NCBI GenBank assembly: GCA_017403155.1
Contig: JAFQOP010000006.1
Span: forward strand, 1-56,947
DNA: 56,947 nucleotides
From: Clostridia bacterium
GTDB lineage: Bacteria > Bacillota > Clostridia > Oscillospirales > CAG-272
Direction of reading: 5' to 3'
Shown: piece by piece, positions 2,364-47,923 of the stretch
Position numbering within the stretch: the first letter of the stretch is position 1
How the letters are laid out: the number at the start of each line of letters is the position of its first letter
Notes under the pieces: model-generated
What the model saw: the letters and a program-made list of their open reading frames with translations, nothing else
The model's database searches: none
What the model was told of the DNA's origin: nothing
Program-made: the position numbers and the translations under genes

Positions 2364-4602
2364 ACTTCTTTTTTATTTTGTTCAGTTCTTCGTTTATAGC
2401 AAGCAATTCCTCCCTGTCAAGCTCGAGTCCAAGCATAGAGGACATAGAAAGAAAACGAAGCAGTGTGAAGCCGCCAAGCATACGCAGCATATCGGGATTC
2501 ACCGAAAAGCCCGCACCCGTGTCACTTTTCTCTGCTGTGGTAAGCCTATCTGTTATGCGAGTAAAGAATGCCCTTCCCTCTTCCGTATCCATTATTACAT
2601 CTATTCTGTCGTTAATGGAGAGATAACCGTCGGGAGAGGTTATCTCAAACCAGTTAAGGACGGTACCCGTTTCCTTCAAAATATATTCCTCATTAGGCTT
2701 TTCCACCTTGCGAATCCTTGCCTCGTCCTTGCACTCTCCCGCGATGGCGGCGATAGCCTGCGAGCCAACGTTTTTTACCCTGAAGGTAAAGAAATGGTCC
2801 TCACTCGTTTTGGTGGCATAGCTTTGGTTATCCACGAAAAGCTCAACGGACGGCTGATTTGAGTAGACCTTGATTTCGGTCTCATCCTCTACTCGGTCTA
2901 CGTATCGCTTCGAGCAGATGTGAACGAAGGGCTCGTCAGAGAGCCATGCCTTATAGGCGTAGAATGCATCCTTTTTATACCCTCTGTCGAAGGTAACAAG
3001 CCCCTTGTGATTCTGCCCGGGCTCACCGCCCTCGGCTCTGGCATCTGCTCCGAAATCAAACATATTCCATACGTAGGTGGCAAAGAGATAATCCCTCGAA
3101 AAGAGCTGCTTTATCAGCTCCTCATGGTAATATGCCTGGTACTCCTCGGTATAGTCGCCCTGGGTCGGAGTTGAGGTGTGCCAATCAAGTGCCTCACACC
3201 CATACTCGCTGACACCTATTGGAATATCGGGATAGTTGCGGTGAAAATTGTCAAACCACTCACCGTTCATTGAAACATCGCCACCATACCAGCCGAAGTA
3301 ATGATTATATGCAACAAGGTCGACAGTCCTCAAATAGGTGGCACCCGTGTCACACATACTGACCGCTGCAACTGCCGTCAGACGCGTTTTGTCAAGACTC
3401 TTAACAAGCCTGTTCAGCTCTCTGTGATTTTCTATGAGGTCGCTGTCCTCACTGCCCGACATTGTTATTTCGTTAGATATCCCCCAGAAGCAAATCGATG
3501 GGTGATTGTAATTCTGTACTATAAGCTCGGTCATCTGGGAGAGGGTGTTTTCTCTTCCCTCTCTTTTGTGCTGCGAGATGTAAGGAATCTCTGCCCACAC
3601 GACAAGCCCAGCCTCATCACACAAATCATAAAACTCCTCGGCTTGCTGATAATGGGCAAGACGGACGGTGCTTGCACCAAGCTCACGAATCAGCTCTACG
3701 TCCTCACGATGATGCTCAGGGAGTAACGCATTACCTATATCCTTTCTGTCCTGGTGACGGGAGACACCGCGCAAGGGATAGCTCTCTCCGTTGAGGAAAA
3801 ATCCACGCTCGGGGTCAACAAAAAAGCTCCTGACGCCAAAGCGCGCCTTCACCGTATCAAGGATGCATTCACCCGAAATCAAGGATGCCTCGGCAGTATA
3901 GAGATACGGGTCATGTCTGCCCTGCCACAGATGGGGATTGTTTATTTCCAAAGTGACGCGAGGATGAGCTGGAGATGCAGCCTTTTGCGCCACTACTCTT
4001 CCGTCACAGTCGAGTATTGATATCCGAACAAGTTGATTGTCAAGTGCCCCCTTCAGATATAGCTCAACGTCTATCTCGGCACATCCGTCCGCGAGCCTCG
4101 GTGTTACGGCAATTGCAGGAGTCGCGCAGTATTCAAGTTCAAAATGCGAAGAAGGTACTCCTATGACGTTTACCCCTCTGTACAGACCTCCGTAGAATGT
4201 AAAATCAGCGACAGATGGGTAGGCGTGTGAAATATCTCTGTTATCCACAGTGATAACCAGGAGGTTTTCCTCATCCAGATGCTCCGTCATATCCACTCGG
4301 AATTTCGAATATCCGCCAAGGTGCGTGCCAATCAGTGCACCGTTGAGATACACCTCGGCATAGTTGTTTGCAGCTCCTATTTCAAGGTATCTGCATTTCC
4401 CCTCGGGCAGCTCCCCGTGCGTGAAGCTCTTTATATATGCCGACACGCATCTTTTATAGTCGTTTCCGCCATCCTGCCCGTCACGCGCATTCCAGGTGTG
4501 CGGTAGGGTTATTTTTTCGGCGTTTTTTGTTACACGGGTGGGTACCTCGGATATATCCTCAACAAAATACCAACCCTTGTTAAAGCTTTTTGTACATCTC
4601 AT
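2362..4602 (-). CDS. Glycoside hydrolase family 2 (beta-galactosidase / beta-glucuronidase type)
   Basis: 746-aa intracellular enzyme with no signal peptide. N-terminal sugar-binding jelly roll (about 1-170), Ig-like domain (180-270), TIM barrel (275-560), then a C-terminal extension. The acid/base Glu is in SICFWGISNE (E378) and the nucleophile Glu in PIGVSEYG (E466). The frame opens 31 codons earlier, but ATG 4602 follows a purine-rich AGAAAGGG site and starts a normal GH2 N-terminus (MRCTKSFNKGWYF). It is divergent from a sugar:cation symporter, suggesting uptake and hydrolysis of the same glycoside. Substrate (galactoside or glucuronide) is not decidable here. Confidence 0.9.
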   Translation of the reverse strand: MRCTKSFNKGWYFVEDISEVPTRVTKNAEKITLPHTWNARDGQDGGNDYKRCVSAYIKSFTHGELPEGKCRYLEIGAANNYAEVYLNGALIGTHLGGYSKFRVDMTEHLDEENLLVITVDNRDISHAYPSVADFTFYGGLYRGVNVIGVPSSHFELEYCATPAIAVTPRLADGCAEIDVELYLKGALDNQLVRISILDCDGRVVAQKAASPAHPRVTLEINNPHLWQGRHDPYLYTAEASLISGECILDTVKARFGVRSFFVDPERGFFLNGESYPLRGVSRHQDRKDIGNALLPEHHREDVELIRELGASTVRLAHYQQAEEFYDLCDEAGLVVWAEIPYISQHKREGRENTLSQMTELIVQNYNHPSICFWGISNEITMSGSEDSDLIENHRELNRLVKSLDKTRLTAVAAVSMCDTGATYLRTVDLVAYNHYFGWYGGDVSMNGEWFDNFHRNYPDIPIGVSEYGCEALDWHTSTPTQGDYTEEYQAYYHEELIKQLFSRDYLFATYVWNMFDFGADARAEGGEPGQNHKGLVTFDRGYKKDAFYAYKAWLSDEPFVHICSKRYVDRVEDETEIKVYSNQPSVELFVDNQSYATKTSEDHFFTFRVKNVGSQAIAAIAGECKDEARIRKVEKPNEEYILKETGTVLNWFEITSPDGYLSINDRIDVIMDTEEGRAFFTRITDRLTTAEKSDTGAGFSVNPDMLRMLGGFTLLRFLSMSSMLGLELDREELLAINEELNKIKKK

Positions 4603-40277: not shown

Positions 40278-41417
40278 ATGAAACGAATAGCTTTAAAGGC
40301 AGTTAAGTGCCTTTTGATTTTTATATACACACTTGCCTCACTTGTCAGCCTCCCGAAGGCAGAGAGTTGCACAGAGCCTTACGTAAAATGCGACACGGGT
40401 TCGGATGCCAGCACCTTCATTGCTGGAGAGGCGCGTACTGCGGCGCGCGATGTAAATGTCTCCTCGCGCTTTTATGAGCTCTTCTTCGGCAGCGATGAGG
40501 AGAAAAATAATCCCCTTATGCTCTACCCGGGCGGAGGCGTATTCGGACTTCTTATAAACGAGGAGGGAGTCACCGTCACAGCTACCTCACAGTCTCGGGT
40601 GCTCCGCGCAGGCGATAGGATAGTTGCAGTGAACGGAGCACCGATATCCTCAGCAAAGGAGGTTGAGGAGGCTGTAAGCTCCTCGGGCGGCAAGAAACTC
40701 TCGCTTGATATTATAAGAGGAGGAGAGAGGATATGCGTGACCGTCACGCCAAGGATGGAATACGGTGCATATCGCCTCGGAGTGAAGCTCCGCTCCCAAA
40801 CGGCAGGCATAGGCACGGTTACCTTCGTCGACCCAGATACCCTATCATTTGGCGGACTCGGTCACGGAGTTACCGACGGGGGTAGCGGAGAATTCGTTAC
40901 CATAAAGCACGCCGACGCGCTTACGGTTGCGCTGGGCGGCTGCAAGCGAGGAGAGTGCGGCAGCGCGGGTGAGCTTACGGGTGTTCTGAAGCAGGACGAC
41001 GTCGGTGACATAGTCAAAAACTGTGAATCCGGCGTATTCGGTGTGCTCACCTCCCTGCCCGATTACTGCACCAAGCCCATGCCCGTCGGCACGCGCGAGG
41101 AGCTCATAGAGGGAGAGGCGGAGATAATCTCCACAGTAAAAAACGGCTACCGCGAGCACTACAAGATAGAAATCTACGACGTTGATCAGAGCTCCGTCGG
41201 CTCCAAGTCCTTCAAAATCCGAGTCACCGACCCAACCCTCATCGCCCTCACGGGCGGCATAGTACGCGGCATGAGCGGCTCACCCATCATCCAAAACGGC
41301 AAGCTCGTCGGCGCAGTAACACATGTAATGGTGGCAAATCCAACCGAAGGCTACGGGATATTTATAGAAAATATGCTGAATGCGGCAGAAAATCAAGTAC
41401 AGCCGAAGGCGGCATAA
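40278..41417 (+). CDS. spoIVB: SpoIVB serine peptidase (family S55)
   Basis: 379-aa forespore protease that, in Bacillus subtilis, starts SpoIVFA cleavage and SigK activation. An N-terminal signal anchor (about 8-26) is followed by a PDZ domain (about 85-158, RVLRAGDRIVAVNGAPI) and the S55 domain. The triad is visible as H196 (GLGHGVTD), D318 (RVTDPT) and S333 (GMSGSPI); the D-S spacing of 15 equals that of B. subtilis. The last 141 bp, from the codon after S333, recur twice downstream. A terminator shared with the convergent Fic gene follows. Confidence 0.94.
   Translation: MKRIALKAVKCLLIFIYTLASLVSLPKAESCTEPYVKCDTGSDASTFIAGEARTAARDVNVSSRFYELFFGSDEEKNNPLMLYPGGGVFGLLINEEGVTVTATSQSRVLRAGDRIVAVNGAPISSAKEVEEAVSSSGGKKLSLDIIRGGERICVTVTPRMEYGAYRLGVKLRSQTAGIGTVTFVDPDTLSFGGLGHGVTDGGSGEFVTIKHADALTVALGGCKRGECGSAGELTGVLKQDDVGDIVKNCESGVFGVLTSLPDYCTKPMPVGTREELIEGEAEIISTVKNGYREHYKIEIYDVDQSSVGSKSFKIRVTDPTLIALTGGIVRGMSGSPIIQNGKLVGAVTHVMVANPTEGYGIFIENMLNAAENQVQPKAA
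41277..41417 (+). repeat. spoIVB 3'-end repeat, copy A (in the intact gene)
   Basis: Codons 334 to stop of spoIVB. Same length as copies B (42458-42700, without its insertion) and C (46287-46427), with 36 and 32 mismatches respectively by hand count over 141 positions and no other indel. All three begin at the codon after the catalytic serine. Confidence 0.9.
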
Positions 41418-41423
41418 AGAAAA

Positions 41424-41445
41424 AAGAGGGCATTGCCCTCTTTTT
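41424..41445. terminator. Bidirectional terminator (spoIVB / Fic)
   Basis: Stem AAGAGGGC / GCCCTCTT (41424-41431, 41435-41442) with a 3-nt loop and T runs on both strands, between the convergent spoIVB and Fic genes. It overlaps the Fic stop region. Confidence 0.85.
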
Positions 41446-42331
41446 ATATTTTGATATTAAATTTTTGTAAGATATTCTTAAATTTATCCTGAGCCGAAAG
41501 GCAGGTGTCGGTAAGGAATCCTCGCTCGGAATCCCATTCCTTAAGCCCTCGGTAATAAAAGAGCTTATGCTCCTCGTCTATGATAAACGGAACTATATTA
41601 TGCTTTAAGCATTCACCGAACATAATAAGTCTGCCTACTCTGCCGTTTCCGTCTTGAAAGGGGTGTATGCGCTCAAAAGCTACGTGAAATGCCACAATGT
41701 CCTCAAAGTTTTTTTCGCTTTTTCCGTTGTATGCGCTTATAAGAGCCGCCATTTCCGAAGCTACATTTTGCGGCTCTGCGGTATCGATTCCGCCAACCTC
41801 GTTGGGTAGCTTCTTGTATTCACCCACTTTGAACCAATCAAGGCGGCTGTCGCTCGTTCCGCTTTTCAAGAGGAAATGCAGTTCCTTGATGTATCGCTCC
41901 GAAAGCGTAAGATGAGCATTATCTATCATACAGTCAATACATCTGAAATGATTTGACGTTTCAATAATATCATCAACGTTGAATACCTTTTCGGAAAGTC
42001 CTATCGTGTTGGTTTCAAAGATATATCGCGTTTCGTCGTGAGTCAGGCGAGACCCCTCAATATGATTTGAATTATAAGTCAGATCTATCTGCACTCTGTG
42101 ATAAATACCGCCCGAAAGACGCGTCGTCTTTTCCTCACGCAAAATATCAAGCAGCGTGCGTTTTTTGTCCGAGCGCACAGCTCTTTTAGGCTTCTCTGCA
42201 AGCTCGGGAATTTCCCAAATCTTACCCACAAGGCGCGCCCCGGCAACTCGCCCCTCTCTGCAATAATTCCTAACACTTCGCTCGGAAATCTCCCATTTTA
42301 GAGCCGCCTCGGCTACCGAAATATATTTCAT
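41444..42331 (-). CDS. Fic-domain protein with N-terminal HTH domain
   Basis: 295-aa protein. N-terminal winged HTH of the excisionase/MerR-like type (about 1-45, VAEAALKWEISERSVRNYC), then a Fic domain with the complete active site HPFQDGNGRVGR (H223-R234), which transfers AMP or another nucleotide group to proteins. An inhibitory motif S88-x3-E92-G93 (SNHIEG) precedes it, as in class II self-inhibited Fic proteins. ATG 42331 follows GAGGAG. The gene is A+T-rich compared with its neighbours and lies between two spoIVB 3'-end copies. Repeats at its promoter suggest autoregulation. No adjacent antitoxin gene was seen. Confidence 0.9.
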   Translation of the reverse strand: MKYISVAEAALKWEISERSVRNYCREGRVAGARLVGKIWEIPELAEKPKRAVRSDKKRTLLDILREEKTTRLSGGIYHRVQIDLTYNSNHIEGSRLTHDETRYIFETNTIGLSEKVFNVDDIIETSNHFRCIDCMIDNAHLTLSERYIKELHFLLKSGTSDSRLDWFKVGEYKKLPNEVGGIDTAEPQNVASEMAALISAYNGKSEKNFEDIVAFHVAFERIHPFQDGNGRVGRLIMFGECLKHNIVPFIIDEEHKLFYYRGLKEWDSERGFLTDTCLSAQDKFKNILQKFNIKI

Positions 42332-42351
42332 AATAATCTCCTCAAAAACCG

Positions 42352-42361
42352 TTATCGGCAA
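42352..42361 (-). repeat. Fic operator-like repeat 1
   Basis: Minus strand TTGCCGATAA, just downstream of the predicted Fic transcription start. One of three copies of the same 9- to 10-bp word around this promoter. Confidence 0.6.
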
Positions 42362-42372
42362 TTTGTACTGTT

Positions 42373-42401
42373 ATTATACCACATTATCGGCAAAATATCA
42401 A
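42373..42401 (-). promoter_or_regulatory. Sigma-A promoter of the Fic gene
   Basis: Minus strand: -35 TTGATA (42396-42401), 17-bp spacer, -10 TATAAT (42373-42378). The spacer contains a copy of the TTGCCGATAA word, so a protein bound there would compete with polymerase. Confidence 0.8.
42384..42393 (-). repeat. Fic operator-like repeat 2
   Basis: Minus strand TTGCCGATAA inside the -35/-10 spacer of the Fic promoter; 32 bp (three helical turns) from repeat 1 in the same orientation. Confidence 0.65.
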
Positions 42402-42431
42402 GTATTTTCACAAAGCTTTTTAAGAGTTATT

Positions 42432-42440
42432 TTGCCGATA
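42432..42440 (+). repeat. Fic operator-like repeat 3 (inverted)
   Basis: TTGCCGATA in the opposite orientation, about 30 bp upstream of the -35 hexamer of the Fic gene and 18 bp before spoIVB copy B. Confidence 0.5.
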
Positions 42441-42457
42441 GGCGCAAAAATTGAGAG

Positions 42458-42700
42458 GGCTGCCCCATCATCCAAGACGGAAAGCTTATAGGCGCGGTAA
42501 CGCACGTAATACTCCTTGCGAGCTTCGCCGCTCAAGCGGCGGCACTCCGTGCTTGGCTCCGTTTGCGGAGCGCTCGCGGAGCAAGCTCGTCGACTCGTTT
42601 CGCTTGATTATGTGTAGCAGACCCCACCGAGGGGTATGGGATTTTTATTGAGAATATGCTATCGGCGGCTGAGAGTCAGGCTATGCCGAAGGCAGCCTGA
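42458..42700 (+). pseudogene. spoIVB 3'-end remnant, copy B, interrupted by a 102-bp insertion
   Basis: Matches the last 46 codons plus stop of spoIVB. The first part translates GCPIIQDGKLIGAVTHVI and the second [19 protein letters not shown], ending in TGA. Removing 42512-42613 restores a 141-bp copy in one frame, 36 mismatches from copy A. There is no upstream part of the gene, so no functional peptidase is made. It separates the Fic module from the GH31/AraC module. Confidence 0.85.
42512..42613. mobile_element. 102-bp palindrome-rich insertion inside spoIVB copy B
   Basis: GC-rich block with nested inverted repeats (GCCGCT / AGCGGC; GGCTCCG / CGGAGC; CGAGCTT near the left end with AAGCTCG near the right). 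Its limits follow exactly from comparison with copies A and C. No coding capacity; small non-autonomous elements of MITE or REP type look like this. A target-site duplication could not be defined. Confidence 0.55.
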
Positions 42701-42709
42701 CGCCGTCCA

Positions 42710-42895
42710 ACTAAGTTCGCCTATCGGCGAGTGAAGTTCACATTGTGAGTGAAGTTTCCTCAAGGAAGTGAAGTTCGCGCCAACGCGCGAGTGGAATATT
42801 AGATAGGCGAGCTTAACTTCACTTTGCGACATAGGAGTAAAACTTCACTACGAGCTAAGCGAATAACTTCACTTTTGCGCTAACAAAAACTTCAC
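42710..42895. repeat. Array of GTGAAGTT hairpin units facing AACTTCAC units
   Basis: Left half: GTGAAGTT at 42731, 42749 and 42768, plus degenerate starts near 42710 and 42791. Each is followed by a small hairpin whose stem differs but still pairs (CGCC/GGCG, TCAC/GTGA, TTCC/GGAA, CGCG/CGCG). Right half: AACTTCAC at 42815, 42841, 42865 and 42888. The halves form a large imperfect inverted repeat. No open frame. Confidence 0.75.
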
Positions 42896-42926
42896 CGAAT
42901 GACACGAAGAGTCAAATTTCAATAAA

Positions 42927-42981
42927 AAAGTTGTCCCTAGCATAACACACGAAACGAGTGAGTTACAATAGGGACAACTTT
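42927..42981 (-). terminator. Long hairpin, probable terminator of the GH31 gene
   Basis: A perfect 13-bp stem AAAGTTGTCCCTA / TAGGGACAACTTT (42927-42939, 42969-42981) encloses a second 8-bp stem with one mismatch. On the minus strand a run of six T follows. It lies 130 bp past the GH31 stop; the sequence between (42982-43113) holds nothing recognisable. Confidence 0.65.
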
Positions 42982-43113
42982 GTTTTGTCCGAACCTGTTC
43001 ATTTTTTAGAGAAAGCATGTTTCCTTTTTATAACATACTACTCTTCCTTTGATGATATCACTTTATTTATTAATGCTATTTTCGTTGGATCTTGTTCTCA
43101 TAAATTTAATACG

Positions 43114-45291
43114 TCAGAATCTTAAAACATAGTTAAGCGAACCGCTGGCTCGTTGTTCCGCCTTCACGATAAACTCACATTTTTCGCCGTGGACGGCAAA
43201 GGGGACGTCTTCCTCGCGCAGGGTTATACTTTTCGGTATTTTTCCGTGCGCCACAACCTTAACATCACCAAGATCGCTGATGCCGCGAATCTCGGGTATG
43301 GAGTTGTTTATTATATCATGACCGTTATCCCTTCTTCCGCTAAAGGAACCCTTACGCTCGCCAACGGTTAACATCAGCTCGGAGTTTCTGATACCGCTCG
43401 AGGTGATCTCAGTGAGTGCGTATCCTCCCTGCTGATAATCGTAAGTGTATCCGTCATCCTCATATATAGCCGTGCTTCCCGACTCCGACGAAGGATAGAG
43501 ATTGATCACGTACTCATGCTCCCTCTCGGTGAGATACCTCTGAGGTGTCATAGTTACGATAATAGCTCCGCTCTTTACAAACAAGGCTCCGCCAATCCTC
43601 TCGGGTGGTATGTATTTTATACTCCGACCACCGACTATGCTCTCACCTGTAAAGTAATCTATCCACTCCCCCTCGGGCAGTGTAAGATTCATATCAAACA
43701 CTCCGACAAACAATGAGTCACCGAGCATATACGCATTCTTGACATTATCAAACTTGTCAGTGTCACTATATACAAGCGGAAGGGGTCTCAACATTGGTAC
43801 TCCGTCCCTGTGTGCAATAAAGGACGTGTAATAAAGATACGGGAACAAAGACGAGCGCATCAAAGAATAAGACTTGTATATTTCTTTAAGCTCTTCTCCC
43901 AGATACCATGGATAGTTCCAGTAGCTCCAGTTGTTCTGCTGAGTCCATGGCATAAGAAATCCGTAGTGCATCGACTGCAAGTTGGTTACATCTATATCGC
44001 AACCCGAATTTGAATGCCCGCACATTGCATAATTCATAACCGACACCAGCGTCTTAGGACCGCCACCTGTATCTCCCGCCCACGTTGCAGCATATTGTTG
44101 AGTACCAACATAGGCACAAGATGTATTTATCATCAGACGTCTTCCGTTATACTCCTTGTGCCCCTCTGCCATATCCTTTGCAAGTAAAACGGGGTAAACA
44201 TTGTGCACCTCGTTGTCATGGAACCTTCCGCCCCAAAGTCTATCGGGATGTGCCAAGACCTGATTTGAAGCGTCAAGCTTGAAAGCAGCGGCGCCGTTAT
44301 CAACGAATTTTTTCAGGTGCTCGAACCATCTTTCTCCTATTTTAGTTATTTTATCCTGATATATTGCAGACTGTCCCAAATGCACATCCAATATCTCAGC
44401 ATCCTCCGCAAACTCATAATTCTCAACGTACGGATGCGCGTTTTCCTCGTTATATATAACGTCATAGTCCTCACAAAGCCACAACGAAAGCTGCATGCCC
44501 ATTCTTCTGAGATTGTGGAAAAACGTGCCGCTGTCACTCGTGTTTGACGGTTTCCAATAAGGTATATAGAATTTTTCATCATTCCACTTTTTATCGACTG
44601 AGAAGTCGTAATTCTTGCTCATCCAATACGGCTCAAGACCCATACAGTCGCACGGTATACCCATTTCACGATAAAGGCGAGTGTATTCGAGTAGTTGTGC
44701 ATCGTTTATACGTTCATTATTTACGACCGTTAATCCATAAGCAAATTTAGGAAGAAGTATAGGTCTGCCCGTTATTTCGGTTATTGACGTTGTCAAACCA
44801 AGGAGAGTGTCACTTTTGAACAAATAAATATCTGACTGACCGCCCAAAACGCAAATGCTCATCTCATCACTGTTAGTGTATCCGAGATCAAAGACAGAAC
44901 GGTAGGTGGTATTGACGAACAGCGCCCAACCGTCACTTGAAAGAAGTATCGGCATTGGTCCGTAACAGCGTACGTTTTCCTTGTTAAGAGCTATTCGCAT
45001 ACCTCTTATCATCAATCTTTCGCGGTTAGAGTCACCGAGTCCAAACAAACGCTCCTTATCAGATAGCTGAACTTTGATAGAATATCCGTCCTTATATTCC
45101 TTTAACGAGAAGGTAACCTCTCGCTTTACTCCAAATACGACTGAATCGCCAACAATTCTTATATACGCAGAATCTGCGACGGGGACGTCCTGCCCCTTTA
45201 GTATTCCGTAACGGCTAAGCATTGATTTGCTTTCGTCAGTGCTCCTGACGTGATACGCATTTTTGCCAACCTGAAAAATCTTAAGTTCCAT
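43114..45291 (-). CDS. Glycoside hydrolase family 31 (alpha-glycosidase)
   Basis: 725-aa intracellular alpha-glycosidase. N-terminal beta-sandwich (about 1-180), TIM barrel (about 185-530) with nucleophile D340 in AAFKLDASN and acid/base D407 in ATWAGDTGGG, then C-terminal beta domains. ATG 45291 follows GGAGGAG; an earlier in-frame TTG is rejected. It is divergent from an AraC-type regulator, which probably controls it. Substrate (glucoside, xyloside or galactoside) is not decidable. More A+T-rich than the arg region, and it lies between spoIVB copies B and C. Confidence 0.9.
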   Translation of the reverse strand: MELKIFQVGKNAYHVRSTDESKSMLSRYGILKGQDVPVADSAYIRIVGDSVVFGVKREVTFSLKEYKDGYSIKVQLSDKERLFGLGDSNRERLMIRGMRIALNKENVRCYGPMPILLSSDGWALFVNTTYRSVFDLGYTNSDEMSICVLGGQSDIYLFKSDTLLGLTTSITEITGRPILLPKFAYGLTVVNNERINDAQLLEYTRLYREMGIPCDCMGLEPYWMSKNYDFSVDKKWNDEKFYIPYWKPSNTSDSGTFFHNLRRMGMQLSLWLCEDYDVIYNEENAHPYVENYEFAEDAEILDVHLGQSAIYQDKITKIGERWFEHLKKFVDNGAAAFKLDASNQVLAHPDRLWGGRFHDNEVHNVYPVLLAKDMAEGHKEYNGRRLMINTSCAYVGTQQYAATWAGDTGGGPKTLVSVMNYAMCGHSNSGCDIDVTNLQSMHYGFLMPWTQQNNWSYWNYPWYLGEELKEIYKSYSLMRSSLFPYLYYTSFIAHRDGVPMLRPLPLVYSDTDKFDNVKNAYMLGDSLFVGVFDMNLTLPEGEWIDYFTGESIVGGRSIKYIPPERIGGALFVKSGAIIVTMTPQRYLTEREHEYVINLYPSSESGSTAIYEDDGYTYDYQQGGYALTEITSSGIRNSELMLTVGERKGSFSGRRDNGHDIINNSIPEIRGISDLGDVKVVAHGKIPKSITLREEDVPFAVHGEKCEFIVKAEQRASGSLNYVLRF

Positions 45292-45319
45292 ATGCTCCTC
45301 CAAAAAGCTTTGTATGTTT

Positions 45320-45348
45320 ATTATAGCACAGCCAGTTTGCTATGAAAA
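45320..45348 (-). promoter_or_regulatory. Promoter of the GH31 gene
   Basis: Minus strand: -10 TATAAT (45320-45325), 17-bp spacer, weak -35 TTTTCA (45343-45348). A weak -35 fits a promoter that needs an activator such as the adjacent AraC-type protein. Confidence 0.55.
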
Positions 45349-45469
45349 TGATATTTATAAATAACATCGCGTGCGAAGTTGTCAAAAATTAAGATCATTT
45401 TTATTTTATATCTTGAAAAAGCGCTGTAAATTGGTTTATACTAAAAGTGATTTTTGTTTTATTAAGGTT

Positions 45470-46219
45470 ATGTATGATATGGAAATATTAAGATTTCATT
45501 TTGCGCATAGAGAATACGTACCCGAGCTGACGGAGATGGTTCCGATAGTCTCGGATCTGACATTTTGCTTTGATGGGGAGATGCACTATATAATAAATGG
45601 AGAGGAGCTGACACTAAGATCGGGTGATGCCCTTTTCATTCCCAAAGGTACGAAAAGACGGCGCCTTTACACTAACATGCCGAACTACTATGCCAGTATA
45701 AATATACTTCACGATGAGCCCCTTGTGCCAAGCATATGCGGAGTTGTGAGAGGCTGTGCTGACCACGAGGTATTGTATTTAATAAAGCTTATGGAACGCT
45801 CAATAAAAACGGTTTCACTTTTATCGCAGGATAAATGTGTGGGGATTTTCACCTACCTTTACTCCGCAGTATCGGAAATGGCTTGCGACATTGACACACA
45901 TGAAATACGAGTGATAAAGCAATACATAGCAGATAATATCAGAGATCGGATAACATTAGAGGAGCTTGCCAAAGTTGCTCATTTTACACCGCAATACCTA
46001 TGCTCGACATTCAAAAAACAAACAGGAATAACACCGATGCAATATGTCTTAAAGCAGCGTATAGAGCTTGCAAAGCGTATGATTATAACATATCCCATTC
46101 CTTTATACGAAATTGCTCAACGATGCGGTTTTAACGATTATTGCAGTTTTTCGCACTTCTTTAAAAAGCACGAAGGCATATCGGTATCGGAATATAGACG
46201 ATCTATAGGATTATCTTAA
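45470..46219 (+). CDS. AraC family transcriptional regulator
   Basis: About 249-aa regulator. N-terminal cupin-like sensor (about 1-120, with [20 protein letters not shown]) and a C-terminal double helix-turn-helix (about 155-245, [20 protein letters not shown] and [23 protein letters not shown]). The start is uncertain: ATG 45470 is 2 nt from AAGG, ATG 45479 is 11 nt away. Divergent from the GH31 gene, its likely target. A+T-rich. Confidence 0.87.
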
Positions 46220-46286
46220 CAAATGGTGTGAAACCTGTCAACAATTTGTAAAATCGTGTTGTCCTTTATTGACCACACTCCTGTCG

Positions 46287-46427
46287 GGCTCACCCATAAT
46301 CCAAAACGGAAAGCTTGTGGGAGCTGTGACACACGTGCTTGTTGCAAATCCAACCGAGGGGTATGGGATATTCATAGAGAATATGTTAAGTGCGGCAAGC
46401 CAGCAAGCGGAGCGTAAAGCCGCATAA
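46287..46427 (+). pseudogene. spoIVB 3'-end remnant, copy C (open frame retained)
   Basis: A 141-bp copy of the spoIVB end, codons [20 protein letters not shown] through the stop, in one uninterrupted frame with 32 mismatches to copy A, many in third positions. The preceding codon is also Ser (TCG), after which similarity stops. No start codon or upstream domain. A terminator hairpin follows 7 bp later, so this may be the original gene end displaced by insertions. Confidence 0.85.
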
Positions 46428-46672: not shown

Positions 46673-47923
46673 ATGGCACAGACACATAAGAGCGTAAACG
46701 AATGCATTTTTATGCTCGATTGCGCGAGAAAATACTTTACACCCGAGTGGATAAAGAGGCTGATCGACGAGATAAGTGCAGTCGGCTATAACGCAATAAA
46801 CATACACTTTGCCGAGGACGTTGCAGTGCGCCTCGAGTCGAAGAAATTCCCCTGGCTTGCAGGTGGCGACCATATACTCTGCTCCTTCGGCGAGGAGTAC
46901 GGCTGTCCCGAGAATAACGGCGACTACATAACTCAGGAGGATATGGCGGATATTGTAAGATACGCGCAATCTCGCGGACTTGACGTTATCCCCTCTCTCG
47001 ACTCTCCCGGACACATGACCTATGCGGTCAAGAAATACAAGGAGCGCTTTGGCATAGATATCGGCAACTACTTCCACAAAAACGGAAAAACTGCAATCGT
47101 GCAGACGATGGGCGAGAACGGAGAGACTCCGAGAGTTCCCTACTCTCGAGGAATTGACATTTCAAACGCCGAGGCGGTTGCCTTCGTAAAGGAGCTCTAC
47201 CTCGAGTACGGCACCTTCTTCCGCGAGCTCGGCTGCACGAGCTTTGACATAGGAGGCGACGAGCTTCTCGGCTGGGGAGATGCGGGCAGCATTGACAAAA
47301 CGGTGCCCAAGTGGTGCAACCTCGACCACTGGGAGGCACACGCAAGAGCTCTGACGGGCAACCCGAAGGCTGTGGCATACGACGCGTTTATCCTCTATAT
47401 GAACGATATTTCCGCCCTGCTTCGCTCGCTCGGTTATACCTCTATCCGTATGTGGAACGACGACGTCTACCGCCACTCAGACACAATGTGGCAGGAGGCT
47501 ACCCAGCTTGACAAGGATATTGACGTACAGTTCTGGTCACCCCACACTAACGGAGGAGAGAACACCGCGCAATACTATATAGACCGCGGTCACAACCTTT
47601 ATAATTTCGCACGCCCCTATACCTATTACACTCTCTATCCGATAGGACGCAACCCCTCTTACGTAACTCCCGAGGCGATTATGAAGGAATGGGACCCCTA
47701 CCTTTTTGCAGCTGATAACTCCGAGTGTGACCCCGGCAACAGCGGCTACATCTTCCCACCCTTCAAGGAGGGCAACCGTATTACAGCACCGAATGAGAAG
47801 GTAAAGGGCGCAGGCTTCTGTCTCTGGTGCGACACCCCCGGTGCCGAAACCCAAGAGGAGCTGCTGGAGCACATCCGCCCCTACTTCACCGCCATTGCGA
47901 AGAAGACGCGCGGCAATTACTGA
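46673..47923 (+). CDS. Glycoside hydrolase family 20 (beta-N-acetylhexosaminidase)
   Basis: 416-aa cytoplasmic enzyme removing terminal GlcNAc or GalNAc. The barrel shows VIPSLDSPGHM and the catalytic Asp-Glu pair in FDIGGDELLGWG (D196-E197). It lacks the separate N-terminal GH20b domain of larger family members. Single-gene unit with its own promoter and a strong terminator. Likely substrates are host glycans or cell-wall fragments. Confidence 0.88.
   Translation: MAQTHKSVNECIFMLDCARKYFTPEWIKRLIDEISAVGYNAINIHFAEDVAVRLESKKFPWLAGGDHILCSFGEEYGCPENNGDYITQEDMADIVRYAQSRGLDVIPSLDSPGHMTYAVKKYKERFGIDIGNYFHKNGKTAIVQTMGENGETPRVPYSRGIDISNAEAVAFVKELYLEYGTFFRELGCTSFDIGGDELLGWGDAGSIDKTVPKWCNLDHWEAHARALTGNPKAVAYDAFILYMNDISALLRSLGYTSIRMWNDDVYRHSDTMWQEATQLDKDIDVQFWSPHTNGGENTAQYYIDRGHNLYNFARPYTYYTLYPIGRNPSYVTPEAIMKEWDPYLFAADNSECDPGNSGYIFPPFKEGNRITAPNEKVKGAGFCLWCDTPGAETQEELLEHIRPYFTAIAKKTRGNY

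Follow-up and report, generated by a model that had tools for sequence, protein, structure and literature searches.

spoIVB as a probable chromosomal attachment site for large-serine-recombinase elements in Clostridia

The window studied here comprises 56,947 nucleotides of a contig (C6) of a Clostridia bacterium of the Oscillospirales, whose genome assembly comprises 1,506,923 bases in 21 contigs and is 87% complete. It carries spoIVB, a gene needed for sporulation, as an intact copy on the forward strand (40278-41417) that encodes a SpoIVB peptidase of the S55 type with a PDZ domain (Pfam PF05580, E 1.7e-67; self match 100%). The last 144 bp of the gene (41274-41417, forward strand) are referred to as end A. 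Two further copies of this gene end lie downstream on the same strand: end B (42458-42700), split by a 102-bp palindromic repeat at 42511-42612, and end C (46284-46427). A Fic-domain gene is located between A and B on the reverse strand (41444-42361; PF02661, E 1.9e-18). Between B and C lie the two cargo genes of a second module, a GH31 (glycoside hydrolase family 31) glycosidase on the reverse strand (43114-45303; PF01055, E 1.2e-27) and an AraC-type regulator with a cupin domain on the forward strand (45371-46219; PF12833, E 7.3e-21). This arrangement, together with relatives of the locus in other genomes, suggests that spoIVB serves as an attachment site for mobile elements.

A first-pass annotation of the window had already described three diverged spoIVB 3′ ends (A at 41277-41417, B at 42458-42700, C at 46287-46427) with the Fic gene between A and B and the GH31 and AraC genes between B and C, and our Pfam searches and recounts bear this out. 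When the insert of B (42511-42612) is left out, A and B differ at 36 and A and C at 32 of 141 positions, as counted before, and B and C at 40. End C is indeed an open frame, running from its Ser codon to a stop codon. One detail had to be revised. The copied unit had been thought to start after Ser333, presumably the catalytic serine of SpoIVB, and C in fact includes the Ser codon as well (TCG, compared with AGC in A). Because this codon belongs to the copied unit, the breakpoint is located between Met332 and Ser333, just 5′ of Ser333 and after a common TG. In the intact gene, this proposed crossover dinucleotide occupies 41272-41273 on the forward strand, the last two bases of the Met332 codon, and the Ser codon follows at 41274-41276.

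Substitutions between the ends were mostly synonymous. For A and C, we counted 22.2 synonymous changes at 33.2 sites and 12.8 non-synonymous changes at 107.8 sites (synonymous divergence dS = 1.66, non-synonymous divergence dN = 0.13). Without the insert of B, the values were dS = 2.22 and dN = 0.12 for A and B, and dS = 1.75 and dN = 0.18 for B and C. All three were thus functional gene ends through most of their separate history. Since synonymous sites are near saturation, the 141-bp ends were compared by nearest-neighbour identities instead of a tree. By this measure, the nearest neighbours of end A were gene ends from elsewhere (identity up to 0.852 with other genomes, versus 0.815 with C and 0.769 with B), so that the three ends did not cluster as recent copies of one gene. 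The gene end nearest to C was that of locus L057 (0.852), and the one nearest to B was that of L014 (0.806). Besides A, B and C, no spoIVB end was detected in the window's 87% complete genome; a fifth match, on contig C20, was a weak match to the PDZ region.

End C is preceded on the forward strand by a short sequence, GTTGTCCTTTATTGACCACACTC (46258-46280), followed by CTG. The AraC gene stops 39 bp before it. We call this sequence the P half-site, the beginning of a gene end from its Ser codon B′, the gene sequence upstream of the breakpoint B, and the proposed exchange point between half-sites O. End A thus consists of B′ and the remainder of spoIVB, and end C with its P forms a P-O-B′ junction. 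The P half-site at 46258-46280 is the sole exact match to the P pattern in the window's genome. End C is probably the displaced original end of spoIVB.

We searched 69 genomes of the window's genus for the last 49 residues of SpoIVB. A match (E ≤ 1) was found in 61, and 22, the window's genome included, contained an additional end not belonging to a full gene (E < 0.05); in one of these 22 (G004), the end was present and a full spoIVB was not found. We then applied a nucleotide profile of gene ends to 60 loci fetched around spoIVB genes in the genus and in order-level relatives, and to the window. Seventeen displaced copies kept their start (model position 1-4), and directly before 16 of these stood one common sequence of ~26 bases, aaaTTTGTTGTCCtttaTTGACCACACTCGTG, with some variation (P half-site consensus GTTGTCC..TTGA.CACACTC.TG); copy B of the window was the exception. 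Two of the 16 came from a genome of a different family of the same order (G051, locus L037). The remaining copies began at model position 13-20, some of them with P ahead of a repeat, or at 37-58. The breakpoint recurs in relatives as well, immediately before Ser333. The codon upstream of the breakpoint is itself conserved: ATG directly preceded the Ser codon in 74 of 75 distinct spoIVB genes.

The exact pattern TGTTGTCCNNNNNTGANCACACTC matched ten times in the 69 genus genomes, and its reversed control not at all. Nine of the ten matches adjoined a profile-detected spoIVB end. The tenth (G073:C68) was negative with the profile; by eye, it is followed by SGSPII, then by a repeat and a gene-end-like tail. 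A single wider search of genome_contigs with GTTGTCCNNNNNNNANNACNNNCNTGNNNGGNWSNCC gave 79 matches in 75 loci. In 69 of these, the profile identified a spoIVB end after P (E ≤ 0.01; the pattern itself demands part of Gly-Ser-Pro), from its start in 64 loci and 120-150 bases further on, behind a repeat, in five. Two loci (L132, L149) showed SGSPII only, and four (L103, L133, L141, L154) were set aside as chance matches. A herbivore host appears in 41 of the 69 record titles (Lapin taken as rabbit), and 22 give no host; the remaining titles are those of other Clostridia, including Lachnospiraceae, Candidatus Limivivens and Candidatus Agathobaculum.

As the search pattern fixes the P-to-B′ spacing and part of Gly-Ser-Pro, the real test lies in bases that it does not demand. 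Wider scan, genus loci and window together, minus the four chance loci and with L132 and G073 still included, gave 74 unique junctions. The non-demanded bases TTG and C, at positions 11-13 and 15, were each present in 68. The Ser codon after the TG started with A in 36 junctions and with T in 38. Seven loci (L037, L038, L039, L128, L129, L150, L172) contained two P-O-B′ junctions. The exact P motif was not found in viral_contigs, and plasmid records gave three matches, two of them annotated as spoIVB. As a separate observation, the spoIVB end is matched by ten faecal records that are catalogued as phages, among them MT836771.1 and MT837803.1; these records are perhaps contigs of bacterial hosts.

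In three genomes (G134, G102, G281), the sole long spoIVB match ended at residue 333-336, and a second type of junction became visible. The left junctions read CAGGGCATG followed by TGAGTGATGTATTATAGGGACAAC in G134, CAGGGAATG followed by TGGGTGAGTTATAATTGGGACAAC in G102, and CAAGGTATG followed by TTCACGAGTTATAATGGGAGCAAC in G281. The sequence after the cut, P′, pairs as an inverted repeat with the P found in its own genome, at 18, 14 and 17 of 23 positions, respectively; among 20000 shuffles, 0, 11 and 0 did as well. In G281, both arms share one departure (GTTGCTCCC and GGGAGCAAC). Both hybrid junctions, B-O-P′ and P-O-B′, are thus present in these three of the five genomes in which we found enzyme-bearing elements. 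Because the two junctions lie on separate contigs in each case, they would bound a single element only by inference. Joined in silico from the two contigs, P-O-P′ gives a pseudo-palindromic attachment site (attP) of ~50 bp. A 25-bp attP half-site and a pseudo-palindromic attP have been described (PMC3783163), and the reconstituted site fits that description in size and symmetry.

The sequences behind the left junctions resemble those of transferable elements. In G134, they encode a TraG-type ATPase and an SLT transglycosylase, and the element also encodes PcfJ; in G102, they comprise a ParA-like frame (by eye), ParB, RepA_N and SSB. Nine proteins of these two genomes were scanned, two of which had no family. 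Owing to the TraG-type ATPase, SLT transglycosylase, RepA_N, ParB and SSB, the elements look conjugative. The G134 element, seen at locus L174, may span 85 kb of one contig (G134:C3 1-85600, L212-L216), with RecD2, PcfJ and many further genes named by eye. Spo0A is the usual neighbour of spoIVB, and a cluster labelled Spo0A by eye follows spoIVB in L087, L090 and L092. In G102, one other open reading frame (ORF) separates the displaced end from a frame that resembles Spo0A by eye. Over 5,064 bp, the elements of G359 and G281 share 99.96% identity. These two near-identical elements agree at 3137 of 3138 positions up to the Ser codon, where the match between the two genomes stops.

Recombinase genes stand directly beside spoIVB ends in relatives, as the first-pass annotation had suggested should be looked for. 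At L174 (Lachnospiraceae), three tandem genes encode large serine recombinases of 557, 570 and 536 amino acids, and the last stops 41 bp before P. At L115 (Candidatus Limivivens intestinipullorum), the last recombinase of a similar triplet stops 31 bp before P. Orthologues by position in the two triplets are 57, 47 and 53% identical, and PF00239, PF07508 and PF13408 were found in all six proteins; the other three triplets were assigned by tblastn similarity. As a test independent of the motif, 397 genomes of the L174 family were searched with the third enzyme (E ≤ 1e-110). Besides the query genome, three genomes matched, at 56, 49 and 49% identity, both 49% orthologues having one stop codon within the aligned stretch. 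All three belong to triplets, and all three adjoin a P-like site and a spoIVB end, one end being cut by the contig end after 33 bases. Altogether, the enzyme nearest the element end was seen in five orthologues, and all five lie directly beside a P-like site with a spoIVB end, two of the five representing one near-identical element. The recombinase is very probably this triplet, which would catalyze the exchange at the spoIVB site. An earlier protein search (47 genomes; 30 places fetched of more listed) and five further recombinase loci gave spoIVB ends, within the stretches retrieved, only at the two loci already known.

Other candidate enzymes were considered and set aside. PF00239 was present in 24 of the 69 genus genomes, but the serine recombinases of G035, G069, G075, G027 and G000 are only 20-26% identical to the triplet and none was assigned, and that of G028 gave no match to the triplet at 1e-10. 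Tyrosine recombinases (PF00589) occur in 62 of the 69 genus genomes, but the single PF00589 protein of the window's genome (344 amino acids) is Xer-like by eye and lies on a contig other than the window's. The window was said to lack an integrase, and contig C6 has no PF00589 or PF00239 match; the genome has three, on C14, C5 and C2. Among the PF00589 matches listed for 44 further genomes, none was on G134:C3 or G102:C86. Ends of an insertion sequence or of a Tn7-like element, and target duplication, were discounted by reasoning: the copies are coding ends that have diverged, and P flanks them on a single side.

Most modules resemble that of the window rather than those of the triplet-bearing genomes. 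In the window's genus, the spoIVB genes seen are uncut, and no recombinase of this kind was seen in the modules. At 27 of the 74 junctions, the locus also contains an intact spoIVB 0.9 to 6.5 kb upstream. An ORF was in view at 64 junctions; at 35 of these, an ORF on the same strand ends no more than 50 bp from P, or within P. Of 98 listed cargo proteins, 71 were scanned, yielding six glycyl-radical enzymes, five radical-SAM activases, four AraC regulators, three FAD oxidoreductases and three EamA transporters; through the choice of proteins, two of the 71 are spoIVB itself and two are recombinases. The window also has a counterpart, L061, with other cargo between its ends and the same outer neighbours. 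End C is followed in the window by a GH20 gene (46673-47923, forward strand; PF00728, E 1.3e-33), which has a shorter relative in L061, and then, in both loci, by TrxB, NrdD and NrdG (named by eye), while the DNA inside differs. Sites with a single end, likewise to be looked for according to the first-pass annotation, were found at L073, L082, L090 and L092. L073 and L082 also lack a module, and the neighbours that directly follow spoIVB in L073 are preceded by additional DNA in L071.

Related spoIVB genes may carry different ends. L066 and L074, the most extreme among all pairs of 75 distinct genes, share 167 of the 180 bases that precede the Ser codon and 43 of the 60 that follow it; for the second most extreme pair, L167 and L175, the corresponding counts are 161 and 46. 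In each pair, the two genes use different types of Ser codon (TCG versus AGC in L066 and L074). Eight pairs exceed 0.74 upstream identity, and the other six have no clear step or a smaller one.

We propose, with a probability of roughly 0.83, that spoIVB is a chromosomal attachment site for large-serine-recombinase elements, with two types of junction and with gene-restoring modules as a second kind of insertion. The site, its recurring breakpoint, both junction types and the linkage of the triplet to the site can be read from the sequences themselves. According to this proposal, spoIVB would hold the bacterial attachment site (attB), B-O-B′, with exchange at O, the TG that immediately precedes the codon of the presumed catalytic Ser, and the enzyme-bearing elements would carry an inverted-repeat attP of ~50 bp, P-O-P′. 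Integration would create B-O-P′ on the left, where spoIVB is cut, and P-O-B′ on the right, with the displaced gene end. In the second and commoner kind of module, a full foreign spoIVB end (B′e) would replace the left half and leave spoIVB intact, giving the layout B-O-B′e, cargo, P-O-B′, in which the cargo consists of metabolic operons, often with a regulator. The window would contain one such module, with GH31 and AraC, ending at C, and the Fic segment would be a further insert, degraded or differently bounded. Such exchange of ends could have proceeded by the serine-recombinase route, and the modules without a recombinase may have been moved by such an enzyme in trans. A more elaborate, integron-like version built on serine recombinases has, in our view, somewhat less than an even chance: triplet-carrying conjugative elements would, in trans, insert and stack recombinase-less cassettes, each made up of a working spoIVB end with the presumed catalytic Ser and a small metabolic operon, at this docking gene in gut Clostridia, so that each insertion replaces the active-site end of a developmental protease.

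The first-pass annotation had suggested that incoming DNA inserts at the end of spoIVB and restores the gene, as some integrative elements do at tRNA or protein genes. The relatives support insertion and restoration, and end A itself may well have been brought by incoming DNA. The suggestion needs amending at four points: the enzyme is very probably the serine triplet and not a tRNA-type integrase, the enzyme-bearing elements interrupt spoIVB in three of five genomes, no such recombinase was seen in modules that, like the window's, lie behind an intact gene, and the Fic segment lacks P.

Several observations weigh against the attachment-site proposal. Copy B has no P half-site before it, and because of this, the Fic segment is bounded unlike the second module. 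The scheme does not explain the origin of B′e in place of P′, and the modules fit only if P′ was replaced by a foreign end. A large serine recombinase lies upstream of only two of the 74 junctions, both in hosts with a cut spoIVB, and no such recombinase was seen in modules behind an intact spoIVB, the upstream view being at least 1.5 kb in 49 of the 74 junctions. All serine recombinases of the window's genome are distant from the triplet (20-25% identity), and ~5 kb upstream of its spoIVB, G028 encodes a tyrosine recombinase (G028:C21:19091-19564). The palindromes of the window's genus have a 3-bp centre and not the NTGT of the elements' attP. Finally, G274 and G359 carry an intact spoIVB on one contig and the triplet with P-O-B′ and a different end on another, and a pair of left and right hybrid junctions was not found in these two genomes; strain mixture or misbinning may account for this.

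The alternative named in the first-pass annotation, in which spoIVB was duplicated in tandem and then underwent internal deletion and decay, is in our view very improbable. Short tandem partial ends do occur beside the gene in L041, L044, L049, L056, L059, L065 and L066, as duplication would predict. However, the breakpoint recurs with a conserved half-site outside it, the ends have diverged under strong purifying selection, A and B are each closer to relatives elsewhere than to one another, and near-identical elements are joined to different ends. On this comparison of sequences, A, B and C are not decayed tandem copies. A different account concerns the spread of the modules and can coexist with our proposal for site and enzyme. 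Homologous recombination across spoIVB and its flanks, for example by natural transformation, might have spread the recombinase-less modules, with a serine recombinase responsible only for the first, gene-cutting insertions; P would then be a fossil edge, and the foreign end would have been selected because it repairs SpoIVB. The modules behind intact genes without such a recombinase, the window's genome without a close relative of the triplet, and the different ends of related spoIVB genes all agree with it. It sits less well with the single P-to-B′ spacing in 74 unique junctions with mixed cargo (although the search pattern fixed this spacing), with the P that also abuts the start of 16 profile-found copies, with the nearest cargo ORF stopping on the same strand within 50 bp of P in 35 of 64 cases, as if P were kept as an edge, and with the several loci that have two P-O-B′ junctions. 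We regard it as possible, though rather doubtful.

The elements that interrupt spoIVB might also leave during sporulation and so rebuild the gene, as skin does in sigK or gin in gerE, in which case the gene-restoring modules would be an escape from that need. This is compatible with attachment at spoIVB, and it would suit the finding that spoIVB is cut at one codon, with both halves kept, in G134, G102 and G281; gin, which rebuilds gerE, likewise has three serine recombinase genes (PMC5595907). We consider developmental excision unlikely here, since the elements look conjugative (TraG-like, RepA_N, ParB, SSB).

The staphylococcal cassette chromosome (SCC) elements at orfX/rlmH of staphylococci also use serine recombinases and form composite arrays at the 3′ end of one gene; they differ from the spoIVB elements in enzymes and target, and the SCC repeat is short. 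Streptococcal triplet-integrase integrative and conjugative elements (ICEs; PMC4701971) have three adjacent, like-oriented serine integrases near the element end and show site-specific insertion inside a protein gene with very short direct repeats, as seen here. Those ICEs, however, target and disrupt mutT, hsdM or traG, whereas the elements here use spoIVB, at the codon of the presumed catalytic Ser, and most of the modules seen lack the integrases and follow an intact gene. The ssrA islands of Dehalococcoides (PMC3146451) are the nearest working analogue: they have a serine recombinase (CcrB-like DsiB), repeats of the target 3′ end between islands, and metabolic cargo discordant with the integration module. 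They differ in that the target is the tmRNA gene, the integration module is present in sixteen islands, and the repeats are short target ends, in contrast to the 141-bp coding end with a presumed active-site residue described here. Cis-mobilizable elements (CIMEs) and accretion (PMC7563491) involve att sites that are kept, recombination and conjugation genes that are lost, and tandem arrays at one gene. The window module has CIME features: P-O-B′ is kept, the contig has no PF00589 or PF00239 match, triplet elements occupy this site in other loci, and no transfer genes are present, judging from the gene list only. According to the CIME article, the genes in which serine-integrase ICEs insert, at internal positions, are conserved but dispensable, and most tyrosine-recombinase elements leave the gene product unchanged; a spoIVB kept intact at a serine-recombinase site falls outside that division. 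The nearest case in a sporulation gene is gin in gerE (PMC5595907), likewise with serine recombinases and a coding region cut internally. It differs by having girAB and a distant girC, compared with three adjacent enzymes at the right end here, and by the other gene and the gene-restoring form. An island with three serine recombinases spread along it (PMC6814731) was considered and is not close.

A literature search covering few subscription journals found no paper joining spoIVB with a serine recombinase or an integration site, and papers on spoIVB with prophages, genomic islands or integrative conjugative elements did not describe this system in their titles and abstract openings. spoIVB would be a conserved sporulation gene that is a recurrent attachment site in Clostridia, with exchange at the presumed active-site Ser codon and with two solutions in one system, an interrupted gene or a spare gene end in place. 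It appears to be a docking site for metabolic gene blocks in gut Clostridia, which would explain, at one locus, part of their variation in metabolic gene content, and a concrete pair of enzyme and site is offered for testing.

Some further repeats were seen near the ends. Downstream of end B, the window contains a 49-bp inverted repeat of the P half-site (42930-42978), an attP-like palindrome both arms of which match GTTGTCCYTWNNNNAACNCAC, with a centre unlike that of the elements' own attP. Similar palindromes of ~49 bp lie downstream of intact spoIVB genes or ends in L041, L045, L047, L049, L061, L062, L064, L068, L071, L074 and L075. They often have a third P-like site ~40 bp on, as in CTCTTCCTTGGATGATG. 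By eye, their arms covary (CCCTA/TAGGG, CCCTTA/TAAGGG) around a 3-bp centre, which is CAC in L045, L049 and L061. Candidate readings are a relic attP, a terminator or both.

Palindromic repeats of ~100-130 bp, many of the form actccttgcg ... cgcttgattat, split displaced ends, time and again at one of two places (model 57|58 or 92|89, approximately). They were found in the window (42511-42612) and in L042, L043, L046, L048, L050, L055, L059 and L066. A second kind of partial end starts from model position ~41-58 behind a ~100-135-bp repeat right after the spoIVB stop codon (L041, L044, L049, L056, L059, L065, L066), several standing in a row in L066; it resembles a small unit that likewise supplies a gene end of its own, with a different breakpoint. 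A short repeat array (agtgaagttc variants) follows end B at ~42711-42895, and a similar array follows a partial end in L041. Fic and Doc-like genes, named by eye, cluster in 10 and 12 fetched loci, some of them overlapping, and several stand beside spoIVB ends, for example in the window (41444-42361) and in L048, L052, L060 and L066.

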